Part shown: positions 8,319 through 25,378 of the stretch, piece after piece
Position numbering within the stretch: the first letter of the stretch is position 1
How the letters are laid out: each line of letters opens with the position of its first letter
Assembly (NCBI GenBank): GCA_937864065.1
Contig: CALMIC010000088.1
Span: 1-32,089, forward strand
Reading direction: 5' to 3'
Length of the DNA stretch: 32,089 bases
Origin: an uncultured Cellvibrionales bacterium
Lineage (GTDB): Bacteria; Pseudomonadota; Gammaproteobacteria; Pseudomonadales; UBA7239
Notes under the pieces: generated by a model
The model's input: the letters and a program-made list of their open reading frames with translations, nothing else
Databases searched by the model: none
Told to the model about the DNA's origin: nothing
Made by a program: the position numbers and the translations under genes

Positions 8319-9644
8319 ATGGACCATGCCATCATCCGCAAGCCGGCCGATGACAGCACCTGCAACCTGCCGCACGATGGCGATCGTGTTGCCCTGCGCT
8401 TTATCGGCCGCGACTGGCCCAAGAGCAGCAGCGCAGTGCAGGACATCAGCTACGCCCAACTCGCGCAGCAGTCCTGCCGCTTCGCCAATGCATTGCACGC
8501 GCTCGGCGTGCAACAGGGCGACGTGGTGTTTGCGCTGGCGCCGCGCATCCCGCCGCTCTACACCGTCGTGCTCGGCAGCCTGCGCGCCGGCTGCGTGTTC
8601 TCGCCGCTGTTTTCCGCCTTCGGCCCGGAGCCCATCATCGCTCGCATGACGAAAGGCGTCGGCAAGGTGTTGTTCACGCTCGCGTCGTACTACCGGAAGA
8701 AAGTGGCGCCGGTGCGCGACCAGCTGCCGGCGTTGCAACACATTATCCTCATCGACGATGACGGTTCGCTGCAGGCGCTGCTCGGCAATACGCCCGGCGC
8801 GCTCGATTTCCACGCGCTGATGGCCGGCGCGAGCGACGCGCCGTTGTCCGAGCTCGGTTTCACCGGCATCGTTGTCGGCGCGGCACTCGGCGGCTTGCGC
8901 CCGGTTGTCGAGATCATGACCGTCAATTTCGCGTTCCTCGCACTGGACCAGATCATCAATTCTGCGGCGGTGATGCACCACATGAGCGGCGGCCAGTTCA
9001 GCGTGCCGCTGGTGATCCGCATGACCACCGGTGGCGGCCGCCAGCTCGCCGCGCAACACTCGAACGCGTTTGAAGGCTGGTATGCCCATATCCCCGGCAT
9101 AAAAATCCTCGTGCCCGGCACGGTGGAAGACGCGCGCCACATGCTGGCACCAGCGCTGGCCGACCCCGACCCGGTGCTGATTTTCGAGCACGCATTGCTG
9201 CTGAACCGCGAAGAGGAATGCCGCGATCACATCGCGGATTTCAACCCGTGGTGCGCACAAGTGCGCCGCGCCGGCACACAACTCACACTGTTGAGTTACG
9301 GCGGCATGCTGGTGAAGGCGATGGCGGCGGCGGAACAGCTCGCGCAACAGGGCATCGACATCGAGGTCGTGGATCTGCGCTGCCTGCGCCCGCTCGATGA
9401 CGCCACCATCATCGCCTCGGTGGCCAGGACGCATCGTGTGCTGGTGGTCGATGAAGGCTGGAAAACCGGCAGCCTGTCGGCCGAATTGTGCGCGCGCATC
9501 GTCGAGCAGGCCTTCTACGAACTCGATGCACCGGTGCAGCGCCTCTGCCGCGCGGAAGTGCCGATGCCTTACGCCAAGCCACTGGAAGAGGCCGCGCTCC
9601 CGCAAGTGGCCGATATCGTGGCGAAAGTACAGGAGATGCTGTGA
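8319..9644 (+). CDS. Chimera: N-terminus of an acyl-CoA ligase joined in frame to truncated 2-oxoacid dehydrogenase E1-beta
   Basis: One open frame of 441 residues with two unrelated parts. Residues 1 to about 173 match the beginning of an acetyl-CoA-synthetase-like AMP-forming ligase ([44 protein letters not shown]). The P-loop TSGTTG-type motif and all later ligase motifs are absent. From about 174 ([10 protein letters not shown]) to the end it matches the beta subunit of E1 (thiamine-diphosphate-dependent), with [38 protein letters not shown] and the closing [10 protein letters not shown]. About 55 N-terminal residues of E1-beta are missing. The glutamate in the SE pair (E178) corresponds to the catalytic glutamate of E1-beta (E89 of the human precursor). 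No E1-alpha gene is in the window. The ribosome site AGGAA is good, and the stop overlaps the E2 start. Confidence 0.85.
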
Positions 9645-10707: not shown

Positions 10708-10953
10708 ATGGAGCGCAATGCCGTCAAGGCCGCCATCAAGAACATCTTCCACCACGTCGCGCCCGACATCGAGTTCGACGCGCTGGACCTGTCACGCCCG
10801 CTGCGCGACCAGGTCGAAATGGATTCGCTGGATTTCTACAATGTGCTGGTCGCGATCCACAAGCAGCTCGGCGTCAACGTGCCGGATTCGGTGCTGCTGG
10901 AACTGAACAACCTCGACGGTCTGGTCGACTACGTCGCTGCGAATGCCCGCTGA
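10708..10953 (+). CDS. Stand-alone acyl carrier protein
   Basis: An 81-residue carrier protein of the ACP/PCP fold. The phosphopantetheine attachment serine is S40 in EMDSLDFYNV, the usual D-S-L motif at the start of helix 2. Helices before and after are well formed (LRDQVEMDSLDF, LDGLVDYVAANA). It begins two bases after E2 and overlaps the glycosyltransferase start, so it belongs to this operon and not to fatty-acid synthesis (no fab genes nearby). It is a likely acceptor for the acyl group made by the E1/E2 part or by the lost ligase. That link is inference. Confidence 0.9.
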   Translation: MERNAVKAAIKNIFHHVAPDIEFDALDLSRPLRDQVEMDSLDFYNVLVAIHKQLGVNVPDSVLLELNNLDGLVDYVAANAR

Positions 10954-12226
10954 GCTGGCTGGCGCCCGCGTCCTCGTCATCGGCTGCGTGTGGCCCGAGC
11001 CGCGCTCGTCGGCGGCCGGTTCGCACATGTTACAGCTGCTCGATGTGCTGTTGCGCGCCGGCTGCAGCATCACTTTCGCCTGCGCCGCCCAGCCGGGCGA
11101 CACGCGCGCCGACCTCACGGCCCTCGGCATCACCGAAACCGCGATCGCGCTGAACTGCAGCAGCTTTGATACTGTCGTACGTGAACTTGATCCGGCCATC
11201 GTCGTGTTTGACCGCTTCATGACCGAGGAGCAGTACGGCTGGCGCGTGGCGCAAGCCTGCCCGCAGGCACTCCGTGTGCTGGAAACGTCTGACCTGCACT
11301 GCCTGCGCGAAGCGCGCCACACCTTGCTGAAGCAGGCACTGGCACGCGGCGAGACTGGCGTGCCACAGCCCAGTGATGACGCGCTGTTTCTCGCGATGGC
11401 GCAACACGAGGTCGCACTGCGGGAAATTGCCGCGATCCTGCGCAGTGATTTGTCGCTGATGATTTCACCGGCGGAGATCGAGCTGCTGCAACAGCGCTTT
11501 GCCGTGCCCCCCACGCAACTCGTTTACTGCCCGTTCCTGCTTGATGCGCCGGATGCTGCCCAATGGCAACCTTTCACTGAACGCGAGCATGTCGTCACCA
11601 TCGGCAATTTCCTGCACGCGCCGAACCGCGACGCGGTGCAATGGCTGCGCGAGGCCATCTGGCCGCTAGTGCGCGCGCAACTGCCGCAAGCCGAGTTGCA
11701 CATCTACGGCGCCTACGCGCCGCAGCAGGTGCGCGAATGGCACCGCGAGCGCAACGGCTTTCTCATCAAGGGCTGGGCGGACGATGCGCTGGCTGTCATG
11801 GCACAGGCCCGCCTTTGCCTTGCCCCGCTGCGCTTCGGCGCCGGCCAGAAAGGCAAGCTGGTTGATGCGATGCTCACCGGCACGCCGAGCGTCACCACGT
11901 CGGTTGGCGCGGAGGGCATGCACGGCACACTGCCCTGGCCCGGCGCTGTTGCCGACCATGCCGCCGCCTTTGCGCAAGCCACCGTGCAACTGTATCGCGA
12001 TGCCGCAAGCTGGCAGCGCGCGCAACAGCAGTGCTTGCCGGTACTGCAAGCAGGCTTCGACCGACTGGTGCATGGCCGCGCGGTCATTGGTAAAATCTCC
12101 CGCGCTCTCGCCAACGTTGGCGCTCACCGTGCGCCGCATTTCACTGGCCGCATGCTGTTGCATCACCAGCACCGCAGCACGGAATTCATGGGACGCTGGA
12201 TCGAGGCGAAAAACAGGAACCTGTAG
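10943..12226 (+). CDS. Glycosyltransferase (GT4-like, GT-B fold)
   Basis: A 427-residue protein with two Rossmann-like halves. The N-terminal half begins ARVLVIGCVWPEPRSSAAGSH, typical of the GT-B acceptor domain. The C-terminal half holds the nucleotide-sugar site, with TIGNFLHAPNRDAV, LHIYGAY and the GWADDALAVMAQARLCLAPLRFGAGQKGKLVDAM block in which A-P-LRFGAGQKGK-x-x-DAM is the family signature. No membrane segment or signal peptide is seen, so it acts in the cytosol. The start overlaps the ACP gene by 11 bases. Substrates cannot be told. The last 60 residues are basic and His-rich (HRAPHF, LLHHQHRS) and match no feature I know. Confidence 0.87.
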   Translation: MPAELAGARVLVIGCVWPEPRSSAAGSHMLQLLDVLLRAGCSITFACAAQPGDTRADLTALGITETAIALNCSSFDTVVRELDPAIVVFDRFMTEEQYGWRVAQACPQALRVLETSDLHCLREARHTLLKQALARGETGVPQPSDDALFLAMAQHEVALREIAAILRSDLSLMISPAEIELLQQRFAVPPTQLVYCPFLLDAPDAAQWQPFTEREHVVTIGNFLHAPNRDAVQWLREAIWPLVRAQLPQAELHIYGAYAPQQVREWHRERNGFLIKGWADDALAVMAQARLCLAPLRFGAGQKGKLVDAMLTGTPSVTTSVGAEGMHGTLPWPGAVADHAAAFAQATVQLYRDAASWQRAQQQCLPVLQAGFDRLVHGRAVIGKISRALANVGAHRAPHFTGRMLLHHQHRSTEFMGRWIEAKNRNL

Positions 12227-12246: not shown

Positions 12247-13782
12247 ATGAAAATTACCTTACTGAACCCGCCCCACACGGCCATTGGTAGCCGCATACCC
12301 GGTGAACACCTGCCACCATTGGGCCTGCTGTCGATCGGTGGACCGCTGCTTGATGATGGCCACGCAGTCCAGTTGCTTGACGCCGACCTGCACGACCTCC
12401 GTATCCCTGCCATCATCGCGGCGATTGCAGCAGACCTGCCGCAGGTGGTGATGATCGGTCACTCCGGCTCCAGCGCCGCGCACGACACTGTGCTGGCGAT
12501 CTGCCGCGCGCTCAAGGCACTCGATGCCCGCATCACCATCGTTTACGGCGGCGTACATCCCACCTATCACTGGGATTCGATCCTGCGCGATTGCGCCGAC
12601 ATCGACGTGATTGTGCGCGGCGAAGGTGAACGCACCACGCCATTGCTGGTGCGTGCGCTCGAAGCCGGGATCCCGCTCGCCGGTGTGCGCGGCATTGCCT
12701 ATCGCGAGCACGGCATGGTGCTCCACACCGCAGCTGCCGAGGTCATCGAGGATCTCGACCAGTTCCGCGTCGGCTGGGAGCTGATCAACCATGCGGACTA
12801 TTCCTACTGGGGCGGCAAGCGCGCTGTCGTCGTGCAGTTCTCGCGCGGCTGCCCTTACCTGTGCAACTACTGCGGCCAGCGCGGTTTCTGGACGCGCTGG
12901 CGGCACCGCGACCCGGTGCGTTTTGCGCGGGAACTGGCGCGCCTGCACCGCGAGCACGGCGTGGAGTTGATCAATTTTGCCGATGAATTGCCCACCGGTT
13001 CGCGCAAGGCCTGGCGCAGCTTCCTTGAGGCACTGATCCGCGAGAACGTGCCGCTGGTTCTTGTCGGCTCCACGCGCGCCGGCGATATCGTGCGCGACAA
13101 GGACATCCTGCACATCTACAAACAGGCTGGCGTAATCCGCTTCCTGCTCGGCATCGAAACCTACAGCGAAGAGACCATGGCCGAGATCCGCAAGGGTGGC
13201 AGTGTGTCGGAAGACCGCGAGGCGATCCGCCTGCTGCGCGAGCACGGCATCCTGTCGATGGCGACTTATGTCATCGGTTTCCAGGAAGAGCGCGATGCCG
13301 ATTACTGGCGCTCCTACCGTCACCTGCTTTCCTATGACCCGGACCAGGTGCAACTGCTCTACGCCACGCCGCACCAGTGGACGCCGTTCTATGCCACTGT
13401 CGAGCAGCGGCGCGTGACCCAGCTGGACCGCAAGAAGTGGGACTACAAGCACCAGGTGCTGGAAGCCGCCGGTGTGCCGGCCTGGCGCGTGTTCCTCTGG
13501 TTCAAGACCATCGAGGTGCTGATGCAGGCCAGGCCACGTGTGTTATGGCGCACGCTGTTCCACCGCGATGCCGGCTACCGCCATGCGATGCGCTGGTACA
13601 CGCGCATGGGCCGCAAGGTGTGGCTGCACGAGGTGGCCGAATTCCTGTTCCACACCCGGCTGGAAAAGCACGGGCCTCGGTTGGCGGATTTCGCCGGCGG
13701 CGGCATGGCCGAACGCGAGTACTCAATGGTGTCGATCGGCAAGCGCTCAGCGGCGGCAGAACCGGTGCGGCTGGTGGATTGA
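12247..13782 (+). CDS. B12-binding radical SAM enzyme, BchE-like
   Basis: A 511-residue class B-type radical SAM protein. The N-terminal cobalamin-binding-like domain (about 1-150) contains LNPPH, LDADLHDL and VYGGVHPTYHW, and IDVIVRGEGE. The radical SAM core has the cluster motif C202-x3-C206-x2-C209 (CPYLCNYCGQ), followed by RGFWTRWRHRDPV and FADELPTGS, then a C-terminal region with YDPDQVQLLY, KWDYKHQVL and RHAMRWYTRMGRKVW. The blocks resemble BchE-type oxidative cyclases and relatives that methylate or oxidise unactivated carbon. No bacteriochlorophyll gene is present, so a different substrate is likely. GGAG lies about 12 bases upstream of the ATG. It is the last gene of the operon. Confidence 0.88.
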   Translation: MKITLLNPPHTAIGSRIPGEHLPPLGLLSIGGPLLDDGHAVQLLDADLHDLRIPAIIAAIAADLPQVVMIGHSGSSAAHDTVLAICRALKALDARITIVYGGVHPTYHWDSILRDCADIDVIVRGEGERTTPLLVRALEAGIPLAGVRGIAYREHGMVLHTAAAEVIEDLDQFRVGWELINHADYSYWGGKRAVVVQFSRGCPYLCNYCGQRGFWTRWRHRDPVRFARELARLHREHGVELINFADELPTGSRKAWRSFLEALIRENVPLVLVGSTRAGDIVRDKDILHIYKQAGVIRFLLGIETYSEETMAEIRKGGSVSEDREAIRLLREHGILSMATYVIGFQEERDADYWRSYRHLLSYDPDQVQLLYATPHQWTPFYATVEQRRVTQLDRKKWDYKHQVLEAAGVPAWRVFLWFKTIEVLMQARPRVLWRTLFHRDAGYRHAMRWYTRMGRKVWLHEVAEFLFHTRLEKHGPRLADFAGGGMAEREYSMVSIGKRSAAAEPVRLVD

Positions 13783-13897: not shown

Positions 13898-14167
13898 TCA
13901 CTTTTGCAGCTGGGCTTTCAGCGGAAACTTCCCTGGCTCACGGATCATCGCCAGGCTGAGATCCACATCAATGTCCGGCCAATAGAAGTGGCCTTCGCTG
14001 GGCTCTTCCACGCGCATCACTGCCTTGAGCGGCTGGTCGAGAAACCACGGGAATTCCGTGTAGGGCAAGAACAACTCTTCATCGTGAGCCAGCAGCCAGA
14101 TGCCGTGGCTGGATACATGCGTTACCTCAACCGGGGAAGTGTTCGAGCCATGCGGCAATGAACTCAT
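13898..14167 (-). CDS. DUF2442 protein
   Basis: An 89-residue protein of the DUF2442 type. The block EELFLPYTEFPWFLDQPLKAVMRVEEPSEGHFYWPDIDVDLSL matches the family pattern, in which a short beta-rich half is followed by W-P-D-x-D-V-D-L. The GAGGAG ribosome site seven bases before the ATG at 14167 supports this start. It overlaps the end of the DUF4160 gene by 41 bases in another frame. Such DUF4160-DUF2442 pairs are very common in bacteria and behave like mobile two-gene modules; a toxin-antitoxin role has been suggested by arrangement, but function is unknown. Confidence 0.85.
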   Translation of the reverse strand: MSSLPHGSNTSPVEVTHVSSHGIWLLAHDEELFLPYTEFPWFLDQPLKAVMRVEEPSEGHFYWPDIDVDLSLAMIREPGKFPLKAQLQK

Positions 14168-14366
14168 CTTTGTGCTCCTCGATGATGGCTACGATCTCTT
14201 GCAACTGACGGGCATTCAGCCGCTGGCATGTTGCAAGAGCAACTTGTGGTTCCAGCCAGAACTTTGCCTCTCCTGTCTGGCACACCACATGGACATGCTG
14301 GCGCGGTTCTTCCCGGGAAAAGAAGAAAAACCTGTAGCCTCCTTCCCGATAGATTGTCGGACTCAT
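14127..14366 (-). CDS. DUF4160 protein
   Basis: A 79-residue protein of the DUF4160 family: MSPTIYREGGYRFFFFSREE and PRQHVHVVCQTGEAKFWLEP are the diagnostic blocks, with the conserved H-V-H-V. The start at 14366 is chosen because GGGAGGG lies just upstream; an ATG seven codons earlier (14387) has no ribosome site. It is transcribed ahead of and overlaps the DUF2442 gene, as usual for this pair. Function is unknown. Confidence 0.85.
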   Translation of the reverse strand: MSPTIYREGGYRFFFFSREEPRQHVHVVCQTGEAKFWLEPQVALATCQRLNARQLQEIVAIIEEHKDEFIAAWLEHFPG

Positions 14367-14405
14367 TGCATCCCTCCCTGGACGCATCTTGCTTAATCCT
14401 TTTCC

Positions 14406-23491: not shown

Positions 23492-25378
23492 TCAGGCGTT
23501 GTCCAGTTCCTGCCAGCGCTCGTAGCAGGCTTCCAGTTCAACCTGTTTTGCCGCCAGCGCCTGCAGCACGGCTTCACTGGCCGTGCGTTCCTGCGCGAAG
23601 AAGCCCGGCTCCTGTGTTTTCGCAGTCAGCGCGGCAATCTCCGCTTCCAGCTGCTCGATGGTTTCCGGTAGCAACTCGAGTTCGCGCTGCAACTTGTAGG
23701 ACAGCTTGCCCGCACTTTTGCGCGCCGGTTCCGGCTTCGCTTCTGCCGCCGGTTTCTTGTCCGCGGACGGTTTGCCGGCGGCGGGTTGCCGGGTGAGCTC
23801 ACGCTGCCAGTCGCTGTAGCCGCCGACATGCTCGCTGATGCGGCCGTCGCCCTCGAATACCAGTGTGCTGGTCACGACATTGTCGAGAAAACTGCGGTCG
23901 TGGCTCACCAGCAGGATCGTCCCATCGAACTCCGCCAGCAGGTCTTCCAGCAATTCCAGGGTTTCCAGGTCGAGGTCGTTGGTCGGCTCGTCCAGCACCA
24001 GCAGATTGGCCGGCTGGCTGAACAGCTTGGCGAGGATCAGCCGGTTCTGTTCGCCACCCGACATCTGCCCGACCGGCGTGCGCAAGCGCGCTGACTCGAA
24101 CAGGAAGTTGTTCAGGTAACTGACCACGTGCAGCGCCTTGCCGTTAATGTCGATGAAGTCGCGCCCGCCGGCGACGTTGTCGACGGCGTTGGCGTTCATG
24201 TCGAGCGTCGCGCGCAACTGGTCGAAATAGGCCACCTGCAACTTGGTGCCACGGCGGATGCTGCCGGCAGTAGGTTCCAGCTCACCCAGCACCAGTTTCA
24301 GCAACGTGCTCTTGCCGCTGCCGTTCGGGCCGATGAGGCCGATGCGGTCACCGCGCAGGATCGTGGTGGAAAAGTTGCGTATGATGTCGCGCTCACCGAT
24401 GCGATAGCTGACCTGCTCGAGCTCCGCTACCAGCTTGCCGGATTGCGCGGCCTGGTCGAGCTGCAGCCTGGCCGTGCCGGTCTGTTCGCGACGTGCGGCA
24501 CGCTGTTCGCGCAGCTTTTCCAGTGCGCGCACCCGGCCCTCGTTGCGCGTGCGGCGCGCCTTGATGCCGGTGCGGATCCAGCGCTCCTCCTCGGCGAGTT
24601 TCTTGTCGAACTCGCTGTTGGTTTTTTCTTCCGACGCCAGCCGCTGTTCGCGGTAATCGAGGAATCCGCGGTAATCGCCGCGCCAGGCATACACCTGGCC
24701 GCGATCCAGTTCCCAGATCTGCGTGGCGATGCGCTGCAGGAAGCTGCGGTCGTGCGTCACCAGCACCACGGCGCCGGGAAACGAGGCGATTTCCTGTTCC
24801 AGCCAGGTGATCGCCTCGATGTCGAGGTGGTTGGTCGGTTCGTCAAGCAACAGTACGTCCGGTTCCTGCACCAGGGCGCGCGCCAGGGCTGCACGCCGCC
24901 GCCAGCCGCCCGACAGGCTGGCCAGCGTCACATCCGGCGCCAGCGCGAGCCGCTGCAATACGGTGTCGACCTGCTGTTGCAGCCGCCAGCCGTCCACCGC
25001 TTCCAGTTCAGCCTGCACTCGCTGCAGTTGTGCCAGCGCACGTTCGTCATCGAGCGGCTGGTTCACCAACTGGTGGTATTGCTGCAACAGTTCACCGGCG
25101 CGCGCGAGGCCACCGGCCACCCAGTCGTACACTGTCACCTCTGAAGCCGGCGGCAATTCCTGGGCGAGTTCAGCGACGCGCAAGCCGGCCGTGCGCCAGA
25201 CCTGGCCGCCATCGGGCTGTTGCTGGCCAGCCACCAGCCGCAATAGTGACGACTTGCCGGCGCCGTTGCGGCCGAGCAGTCCGACGCGGTCACCGGCAGC
25301 GAGGTTGAGCGAGACCTTGTCGAGCAGCACATGGGTGCCGAAGGCCAGCTCGACCTGTTCGAAACGGAGCAATGACAT
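23492..25378 (-). CDS. uup: ABC-F ATPase Uup
   Basis: A 628-residue soluble ABC-F protein that acts on ribosomes or branched DNA rather than on transport. ABC1 (about 1-220) has Walker A GRNGAGKSS, signature LSGGWRRR and Walker B LLLDEPTNHLD. The arginine-rich linker (KARRTRNEGRVRALEKLREQRAARRE) is the P-site tRNA interaction motif region. ABC2 has GPNGSGKST, MSGGEQNR and LVLDEPTNDLD. A C-terminal coiled coil (about 560-628), with ELELLPETIEQLEAEIAAL, distinguishes Uup from EttA. It is the last gene of a compact minus-strand string and starts 12 bases after the glycosyltransferase. Confidence 0.94.
   Translation of the reverse strand: MSLLRFEQVELAFGTHVLLDKVSLNLAAGDRVGLLGRNGAGKSSLLRLVAGQQQPDGGQVWRTAGLRVAELAQELPPASEVTVYDWVAGGLARAGELLQQYHQLVNQPLDDERALAQLQRVQAELEAVDGWRLQQQVDTVLQRLALAPDVTLASLSGGWRRRAALARALVQEPDVLLLDEPTNHLDIEAITWLEQEIASFPGAVVLVTHDRSFLQRIATQIWELDRGQVYAWRGDYRGFLDYREQRLASEEKTNSEFDKKLAEEERWIRTGIKARRTRNEGRVRALEKLREQRAARREQTGTARLQLDQAAQSGKLVAELEQVSYRIGERDIIRNFSTTILRGDRIGLIGPNGSGKSTLLKLVLGELEPTAGSIRRGTKLQVAYFDQLRATLDMNANAVDNVAGGRDFIDINGKALHVVSYLNNFLFESARLRTPVGQMSGGEQNRLILAKLFSQPANLLVLDEPTNDLDLETLELLEDLLAEFDGTILLVSHDRSFLDNVVTSTLVFEGDGRISEHVGGYSDWQRELTRQPAAGKPSADKKPAAEAKPEPARKSAGKLSYKLQRELELLPETIEQLEAEIAALTAKTQEPGFFAQERTASEAVLQALAAKQVELEACYERWQELDNA

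Follow-up and report, generated by a model that had tools for sequence, protein, structure and literature searches.

The gene at positions 12247-13782 (+) of a 32,089-nucleotide stretch of DNA from an uncultured Cellvibrionales bacterium (contig CALMIC010000088.1 of assembly GCA_937864065.1; hereafter the window, meaning this whole stretch) encodes a protein of 511 residues, P0001, which is probably a solitary, horizontally moving radical S-adenosylmethionine (SAM) enzyme of class B, from a clade related to the bacteriochlorophyll cyclase BchE but distinct from it. This clade is a BchE-related subfamily without known function; no title or abstract describing it was found in a literature search in which the larger result lists were seen in part and most subscription papers lay outside the search. 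Proteins of the clade resemble BchE in their full-length match to the profile TIGR02026 above its cut-off, in their domain order and in a shared set of conserved positions, but differ from it in diagnostic motifs, in overall identity and in the genomes that carry them, most of which are devoid of photosynthetic reaction centres.

A cobalamin-dependent radical SAM protein

The open reading frame begins with an ATG at 12247 and comprises 511 codons, and its product fuses a B12-binding domain (PF02310) to a radical SAM core (PF04055), both above their gathering scores, which is the combination that defines class B. Judged by its sequence, the frame is a real gene for a class B (cobalamin-dependent) radical SAM protein. 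A preliminary description of this DNA had recognized a CxxxCxxC cluster motif and a likeness to BchE in the protein, and both hold. The cluster motif is present as C202-x3-C206-x2-C209 and is intact in 34 of the 35 clade proteins read, and the best NCBIfam match of P0001 is to TIGR02026 (BchE), which it matches with 500.4 bits (curated cut-off 481.35; 5.9e-150; profile positions 1-497). The hopanoid C-3 methylase HpnR (TIGR04367) and HpnJ (TIGR03471) likewise have a B12 domain followed by a radical SAM core, but P0001 reaches only 120.4 bits with the former, the second family by score, and 86.3 bits with the latter, the fifth, against cut-offs of 650 and 577.6.

An AlphaFold2 model of P0001 built from 22 clade sequences (mean pLDDT 84.9) has as its closest solved folds AprD4, CysS, MgmA, TsrM, OxsB and TokK (Z 22-27), all of class B or of kindred radical SAM types. 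OxsB, TsrM, CysS, TokK and MgmA have a fold in common with it over 378-439 residues (Z 22-25, root-mean-square deviation 3.2-5.0), although identity in these structural alignments is 15-19% and the five enzymes act on other substrates. A search of the PDB with the P0001 sequence matched only OxsB, TokK, CysS and 9ccb (MgmA), at 41-55 bits. From these resemblances P0001 should bind cobalamin and a [4Fe-4S] cluster and cleave SAM, a prediction with which the modelled fold agrees.

Separation of the clade from BchE

Clade relatives were found in named genomes (21 proteins) and, in addition, on five plasmid records. With the two plasmid records that were read, this gave 23 relatives (set A1) for comparison with P0001. 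Identity ranges from 53 to 76% with these relatives and from 29 to 32% with 11 BchE proteins (BLASTP). By BLASTP score the lineage of L115 and L116 (genomes G945 and G882) is nearest, at 449-453 bits, followed by BchE at 179-212 bits (n = 17) and by eight other class B-type proteins at 51-122 bits; on pairwise sequence scores, BchE is the nearest of the families compared, ahead of the other class B-type proteins. The C-terminal blocks that the preliminary description had assigned to BchE-type cyclases are the weakest portion of the resemblance: the BLASTP alignments with the 11 BchE proteins end at residue 382-410 in nine cases (at 445 and at 504 in the other two), and the sequence WDYKHQ stands where BchE has NFVTP.

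When 24 clade and 11 BchE proteins were aligned (conservation thresholds of 95% for the clade and 90% for BchE), 61 columns, the CX3CX2C motif included, were conserved and identical in both groups, and 44 were fixed in each group yet different. Several of the differences form short motifs. WDYKHQ occurs in 35/35 clade proteins and in 0/17 BchE proteins; GSRxP is equally constant in the clade (35/35), its sole match among BchE being a run-on frame (L075); and GHSGS is found in all 35 clade proteins and both L115/L116 proteins, compared with none of the 17 BchE proteins. Conversely, GGAEI and NFVTP are present in every one of the 17 BchE proteins and absent from the 35 of the clade. Two copies were left out of these counts and of the trees, L114, which has an in-frame TAG and is in pieces, and L117, which is incomplete. 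The BchE proteins were read from 11 of 13 BchE-type genomes, the genes of the other two (L034 in G584 and L103 in G1086) being typed by their scores with the A1 profile, 270 and 260 bits, respectively.

The trees, which were short searches with long-branch warnings, keep the two groups apart. In a tree of 43 rows the 24 rows of the clade and the 11 of BchE each lie on one side of a branch, with supports of 99 and 100; without the four long outgroup rows from the source genome the values are 91 for the clade and 98 for BchE; and a tree of 54 rows without outgroup gives 100 for BchE (17 rows), 92 for the clade (35 rows) and 100 for L115/L116. The preliminary description had proposed a phylogeny of BchE, naming placement inside the true BchE clade in a phototrophic genome as the result that would speak against it; P0001 falls outside the true BchE clade, in a genome in which no phototrophy marker was found.

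The L115/L116 lineage shares the GHSGS and TPHxW motifs with the clade but lacks GSRxP and WDYKHQ, is 46-47% identical to P0001 and stays below the TIGR02026 cut-off, with 403 and 427 bits. Its genes lie at L115:8229-9785 and L116:7459-9069 (-), and that of L116 overlaps a NAD-binding/DoxX_3 gene, after which come genes for DUF2269 and for another protein of SDR type; together these may form a set of partners.

TIGR02026 scores and photosynthesis genes

The TIGR02026 cut-off is passed by all 12 clade members that were scored singly (491-669 bits), and seven BchE proteins of phototrophs reach 756-842 bits. The highest value in the clade, 669 bits, belongs to the copy on an Allocoleopsis plasmid (L027, 6514-8079), far above the other members scored, which suggests, without proving it, that a cyanobacterial clade member is perhaps part of the TIGR02026 seed. 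In public records the clade members on Allocoleopsis and Sphingobium plasmids bear the name bchE; the stretches displayed there contain no bch gene beside them.

According to one review, BchE is apparently confined to photosynthetic bacteria (PMC4500134). The source genome of the window is a metagenome-assembled genome (MAG), 91% complete and with 7.3% contamination, and within it no PufL/M-type (PF00124) reaction-centre match, no BchL above the cut-off and no AcsF match was found, in agreement with the earlier statement that the gene lies outside a photosynthesis context; nor does any protein besides P0001 exceed the TIGR02026 cut-off. Among 35 genomes with a clade gene, a set that includes two with broken copies (G928 and G890) and leaves out the plasmid records W01 and W02, PF00124 was detected in three (G770, G812 and G928), compared with 13 of 13 BchE-type genomes. 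A Fisher test on this contrast gives 2.9e-9, or 1.2e-8 when G754 is counted as a phototroph, values inflated by the presence of related genomes. G770 also carries AcsF and hence owns an aerobic cyclase independent of the clade enzyme. The Chloroflexaceae MAG G754, with no PF00124 match, has a clade member (L006) and a true BchE split over two frames (L068), BchX and AcsF on different contigs.

Given the score gap to the BchE proteins of phototrophs, the separate grouping in trees, the motifs and the scarcity of reaction-centre genes, P0001 is very probably not a bacteriochlorophyll cyclase, and we hold with high confidence that the clade as a whole is separate from BchE and does not perform the cyclase reaction. 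If P0001 were a true or relic BchE, left from a lost phototrophy or kept in aerobic phototrophs, the score above the TIGR02026 cut-off, the bchE labels in public records (H1, H2) and the reaction centres of three clade genomes would be expected. We nevertheless consider such an origin of its function most improbable, for the BchE motifs are missing in 35/35 clade proteins, which also stand apart in the trees, 32 of the 35 genomes have no PufLM match, G770 has AcsF, and the ratio of nonsynonymous to synonymous substitution rates (dN/dS; see below) is low for pairs whose genomes lack reaction centres. Moreover, as reported in PMC4500134, single knockouts of three bchE homologue candidates of Synechocystis, which were not placed relative to the clade, gave no cyclase-type phenotype; this was also the one paper found to mention the Synechocystis locus slr0905.

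Distribution, mobility and selection

The clade gene is solitary, patchy in its distribution and horizontally moving. Its hosts belong to Pseudomonadota, Chloroflexota, Planctomycetota, Bacteroidota and Campylobacterota, in addition to the cyanobacterial plasmid, and include named isolates of Pseudomonas, Acidovorax, Diaphorobacter and Povalibacter. In surveys that scored no more than three or four preliminary candidates in each genome, it was found in one of 390 genomes sampled across the order, the source genome itself, and in 11 of 398 from the phylum, a sample that also yielded two genes of the L115/L116 lineage and seven BchE-type matches. In the 54-row tree the window copy groups, with support of 100, with two Chloroflexota MAGs and one genome of its own class; single cases of placement across phyla could be errors of MAG binning. 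Within the genus that contains Pseudomonas otitidis (G757) four of 18 species have the gene, at different sites, and what the P. otitidis copy has in common with the other three is the gene alone and not the flanks, apart from one distant match of 140 bases in one pair. TonB-dependent receptors near three Pseudomonas copies differ from each other: the one near L008 passes a copper-receptor model with 975.5 bits, the one near L009 is under every listed cut-off and the one near L010 was assigned by a Pfam scan only. In g493, one genus of the phylum (L109-L113 and L117), the gene has a fixed place, flanked on one side by genes for a biopterin-dependent aromatic amino acid hydroxylase and a regulator of AsnC type and on the other by a gene read as argB, an arrangement that we take as descent within the genus and as an indication that a mobile gene can settle. 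Transfer by phage or mobile element was considered as an origin and rejected, the best phage match being a partial one (26%, over 63% of the query) and none being confirmed in viral contigs.

The gene is under purifying selection, with dN/dS of 0.10-0.25 in eight of nine pairs (NG86), the window copy with L106 among them; the pairs with L084 and L085 contain a run-on 5' end, and the ninth pair, window copy with L006 (0.08), was set aside on account of saturated dS. Damaged copies do occur: that of G928 (L114) has an in-frame TAG, that of G890 (L117) retains only profile positions 273-501, and L112 has an arginine in place of the first cluster cysteine. These three copies are what an inert gene, carried along as a decaying passenger, would be expected to leave, but the dN/dS of the eight pairs and the intact cluster motif of 34/35 copies make such a fate very unlikely for the clade gene.

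Genomic neighbours

Across the clade loci no conserved neighbour was found, and the commonest family around 24 loci, once the enzyme itself and shadow frames are set aside, is present at six of them and was read as LysR-type regulators. In the window, P0001 is preceded, in order, by a ligase/E1 remnant, an E2 gene, an acyl carrier protein (ACP) gene and a glycosyltransferase (GT) gene (Table 1). The last two had been named in the preliminary description, rightly as the PF00550 and PF13692 matches confirm, and the same text had argued from them that the substrate of the enzyme may be an acyl chain or a glycolipid. That argument falls. None of the 23 relatives has ACP, GT, E1 or E2 genes beside it (BLASTP above 45 bits, in flanks that ranged from a few hundred bases up to roughly 15 kilobases, kb). 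In the same-genus genome G456 the corresponding GT, 61-63% identical to that of the window, converges on SmpB: the ends of the two genes are 24 bases apart, ABC-F lies on the far side of the GT, and the junction has no ACP gene and no radical SAM gene. G456 is 83% complete, and the absence of a clade gene elsewhere in it rests on the order-wide genome survey. The GT, ACP and P0001 genes are thus separable and have become adjacent only now.

This G456 contig also aligns with several other parts of the window (70-78% nucleotide identity), which places the window contig in the genus in spite of the contamination of the MAG. Furthermore, the GT of G456 directly follows ABC-F, whereas the ABC-F counterpart in the window (23492-25378) lies 11 kb from the GT, so rearrangement has taken place here since the divergence of the two genomes. 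The interval from the GT to SmpB measures 2.2 kb in the window and contains the P0001 gene and a DUF2442/DUF4160 pair that, being located in the stretch missing from G456, possibly arrived together with it.

Upstream, the frame 8319-9644 (+) joins about 130 residues of the N-terminus of an AMP-binding ligase to a start-less E1-beta of transketolase type; neither the rest of the ligase nor any E1-alpha was seen, none of 896 matching plasmid records covers more than 80% of it in one place, and it is possibly the product of a deletion or a misassembly.

A function as tailoring enzyme for an acyl-ACP or glycolipid made by the neighbours would fit the adjacency of the ACP, GT and P0001 genes on one strand and the E2-type acyltransferase upstream, but it has very little probability in view of the 0/23 relatives with such neighbours, of the G456 junction, where the GT adjoins SmpB without ACP or enzyme, and of the damaged appearance of the upstream ligase/E1 frame. 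A role in an ACP/GT operon was rejected on the lack of neighbour conservation and on that junction. We are accordingly fairly sure that P0001 is no operon partner of ACP and GT and that its neighbours are incidental; a lipid substrate as such is untouched by this conclusion.

Table 1. Coordinates of the P0001 gene, its parts and its neighbours in the window
Feature	Position	Strand	Basis
BchE-like cobalamin-dependent radical SAM protein P0001, 511 residues	12247..13782	+	frame, TIGR02026, Pfam; 76% identity to nearest A1 relative, 77% to L106
Clade motif GSRIP, residues 14-18 (BchE counterpart: GGAEI block)	12286..12300	+	alignment, motif count
B12-binding domain, residues 21-133	12307..12645	+	PF02310, 70.4 bits
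GHSGS loop, residues 71-75, at the end of B12-domain strand 3	12457..12471	+	motif count; model strand 67-71
Radical SAM core, residues 197-355	12835..13311	+	PF04055, 70.9 bits
CX3CX2C, C202, C206 and C209 (CPYLCNYC, residues 202-209); expected [4Fe-4S] cluster ligand	12850..12873	+	sequence reading
Clade motif WDYKHQ, residues 398-403 (BchE counterpart: NFVTP)	13438..13455	+	alignment, motif count
C-terminal helical part, residues 412-468, rich in Trp, Arg and His	13480..13650	+	sequence; model helices 412-427, 430-438, 442-468
Acyl carrier protein, overlapping the start of GT by 11 base pairs (bp); judged not functionally tied	10708..10953	+	PF00550, 40.7 bits
Group 1 glycosyltransferase (GT), 20 bp upstream of the P0001 gene; judged not functionally tied	10943..12226	+	PF13692
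DUF2442 (13898-14167) and DUF4160 (14127-14387), overlapping, between the P0001 gene and SmpB	13898..14387	-	PF10387, 49.2 bits; PF13711, 62.7 bits

Observations against the proposed reading

Several observations weigh against a solitary enzyme whose clade is related to BchE and yet distinct from the cyclase. With regard to the relationship, the 43-row tree places the long outgroup rows on both sides (support 87) and does not recover clade and BchE as sisters, and the reduced free tree splits the two again; a tree constrained to hold them together is not rejected, having a slightly higher likelihood and an approximately unbiased test value (p-AU) of 0.73. The closeness of the clade to TIGR02026 may be inflated if the seed contains a clade member, and the 44 fixed differences in the alignment could point to a substrate unrelated to porphyrins.

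With regard to the distinction from the cyclase, three clade genomes (G770, G812 and G928) do carry reaction centres, and a fourth, G754, has BchX (444 bits), AcsF and the split true BchE. In G770 the clade gene is the sole TIGR02026 match above 1e-60, and in G812 and G928, for which three of 12 and three of 21 first-look candidates, respectively, were scored, no true BchE was found. A cyclase role in a few phototrophs, for instance in these last two, is therefore not strictly excluded. Finally, the ACP, GT and P0001 genes are likely to be co-transcribed in this genome, as they lie on one strand with an overlap of 11 bp and a gap of 20 bp.

Predicted chemistry and candidate substrates

From what is known of the family and from work on BchE (PMC13142503), the cofactor chemistry of P0001 should proceed along the following lines. 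The N-terminal domain would hold cobalamin in the base-off state and the CX3CX2C motif a [4Fe-4S] cluster; a donor of low potential would supply the electrons that cleave SAM, and the resulting 5'-deoxyadenosyl radical would abstract a hydrogen atom from the substrate. Cobalamin would next either help to oxidize or cyclize the substrate, as it does in BchE and OxsB, or give a methyl group. The N-terminal loop and the C-terminal motif, where many of the fixed differences lie, are taken as putative substrate-facing parts on the evidence of the alignment. Since the gene is solitary in several phyla and has no partners that recur across them, its substrate would be a metabolite common to very different bacteria.

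As a guess, we name a tetrapyrrole of the haem pathway as the single most likely substrate, because BchE, the closest characterized relative, acts on Mg-protoporphyrin monomethyl ester; even so it is doubtful that this guess is right, and our estimate was lowered slightly since the trees do not give sisterhood with BchE. All non-tetrapyrrole substrates taken together are likelier than a tetrapyrrole, but no single one of them is. The corresponding proposal, a class B radical SAM methyltransferase (or oxidase) acting on a shared metabolite such as a membrane lipid, a quinone, a tRNA base or a cofactor, has a chance somewhat short of even. Most class B enzymes are presumed to be methylases, as stated in PMC13142503, and the methylases TsrM, CysS and TokK are among the best structural matches of P0001. 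In addition, 44 positions, some of them within the N-terminal loop and others within the C-terminal motif, are fixed otherwise than in BchE, whose sisterhood with the clade was not recovered, and the Trp/Arg-rich C-terminal helices would suit a contact with the membrane. On the other hand, the pairwise score puts P0001 nearer to BchE than to the other class B proteins compared or to the methylase families of NCBIfam, where HpnR reaches 120 bits, and across the loci no neighbour indicates a lipid, quinone or tRNA pathway.

A more specific and speculative proposal is that the enzyme, spread as one mobile gene, modifies haem or one of its precursors in heterotrophs by a new cobalamin-dependent reaction, with the invariant His72 of the GHSGS loop located under the cobalt. 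We regard this as improbable, the more so since the sister-group kinship with BchE was not recovered, on which account it was marked down a little. A histidine at that position would set the clade apart from class 2 enzymes, which have an uncharged or hydrophobic residue under the cobalt according to PMC13331322, and from TsrM, for which an arginine is given in PMC11659888.

Significance

For the annotation of genomes, the bchE label is a trap, as surveys of phototrophy or of anaerobic chlorophyll synthesis that are based on this name can be misled; WDYKHQ as against NFVTP tells the clade from BchE in every sequence read (35 and 17, respectively). BchE has recently been reconstituted in vitro, as PMC13142503 reports, and the clade offers comparison enzymes from non-phototrophs for the question of its origin. 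Should the haem-modification proposal be true, the cyclase chemistry of BchE would have arisen from, or beside, a tetrapyrrole enzyme unrelated to light. A lone enzyme that is maintained by selection and is also present in named isolates could, moreover, expose a new radical reaction.

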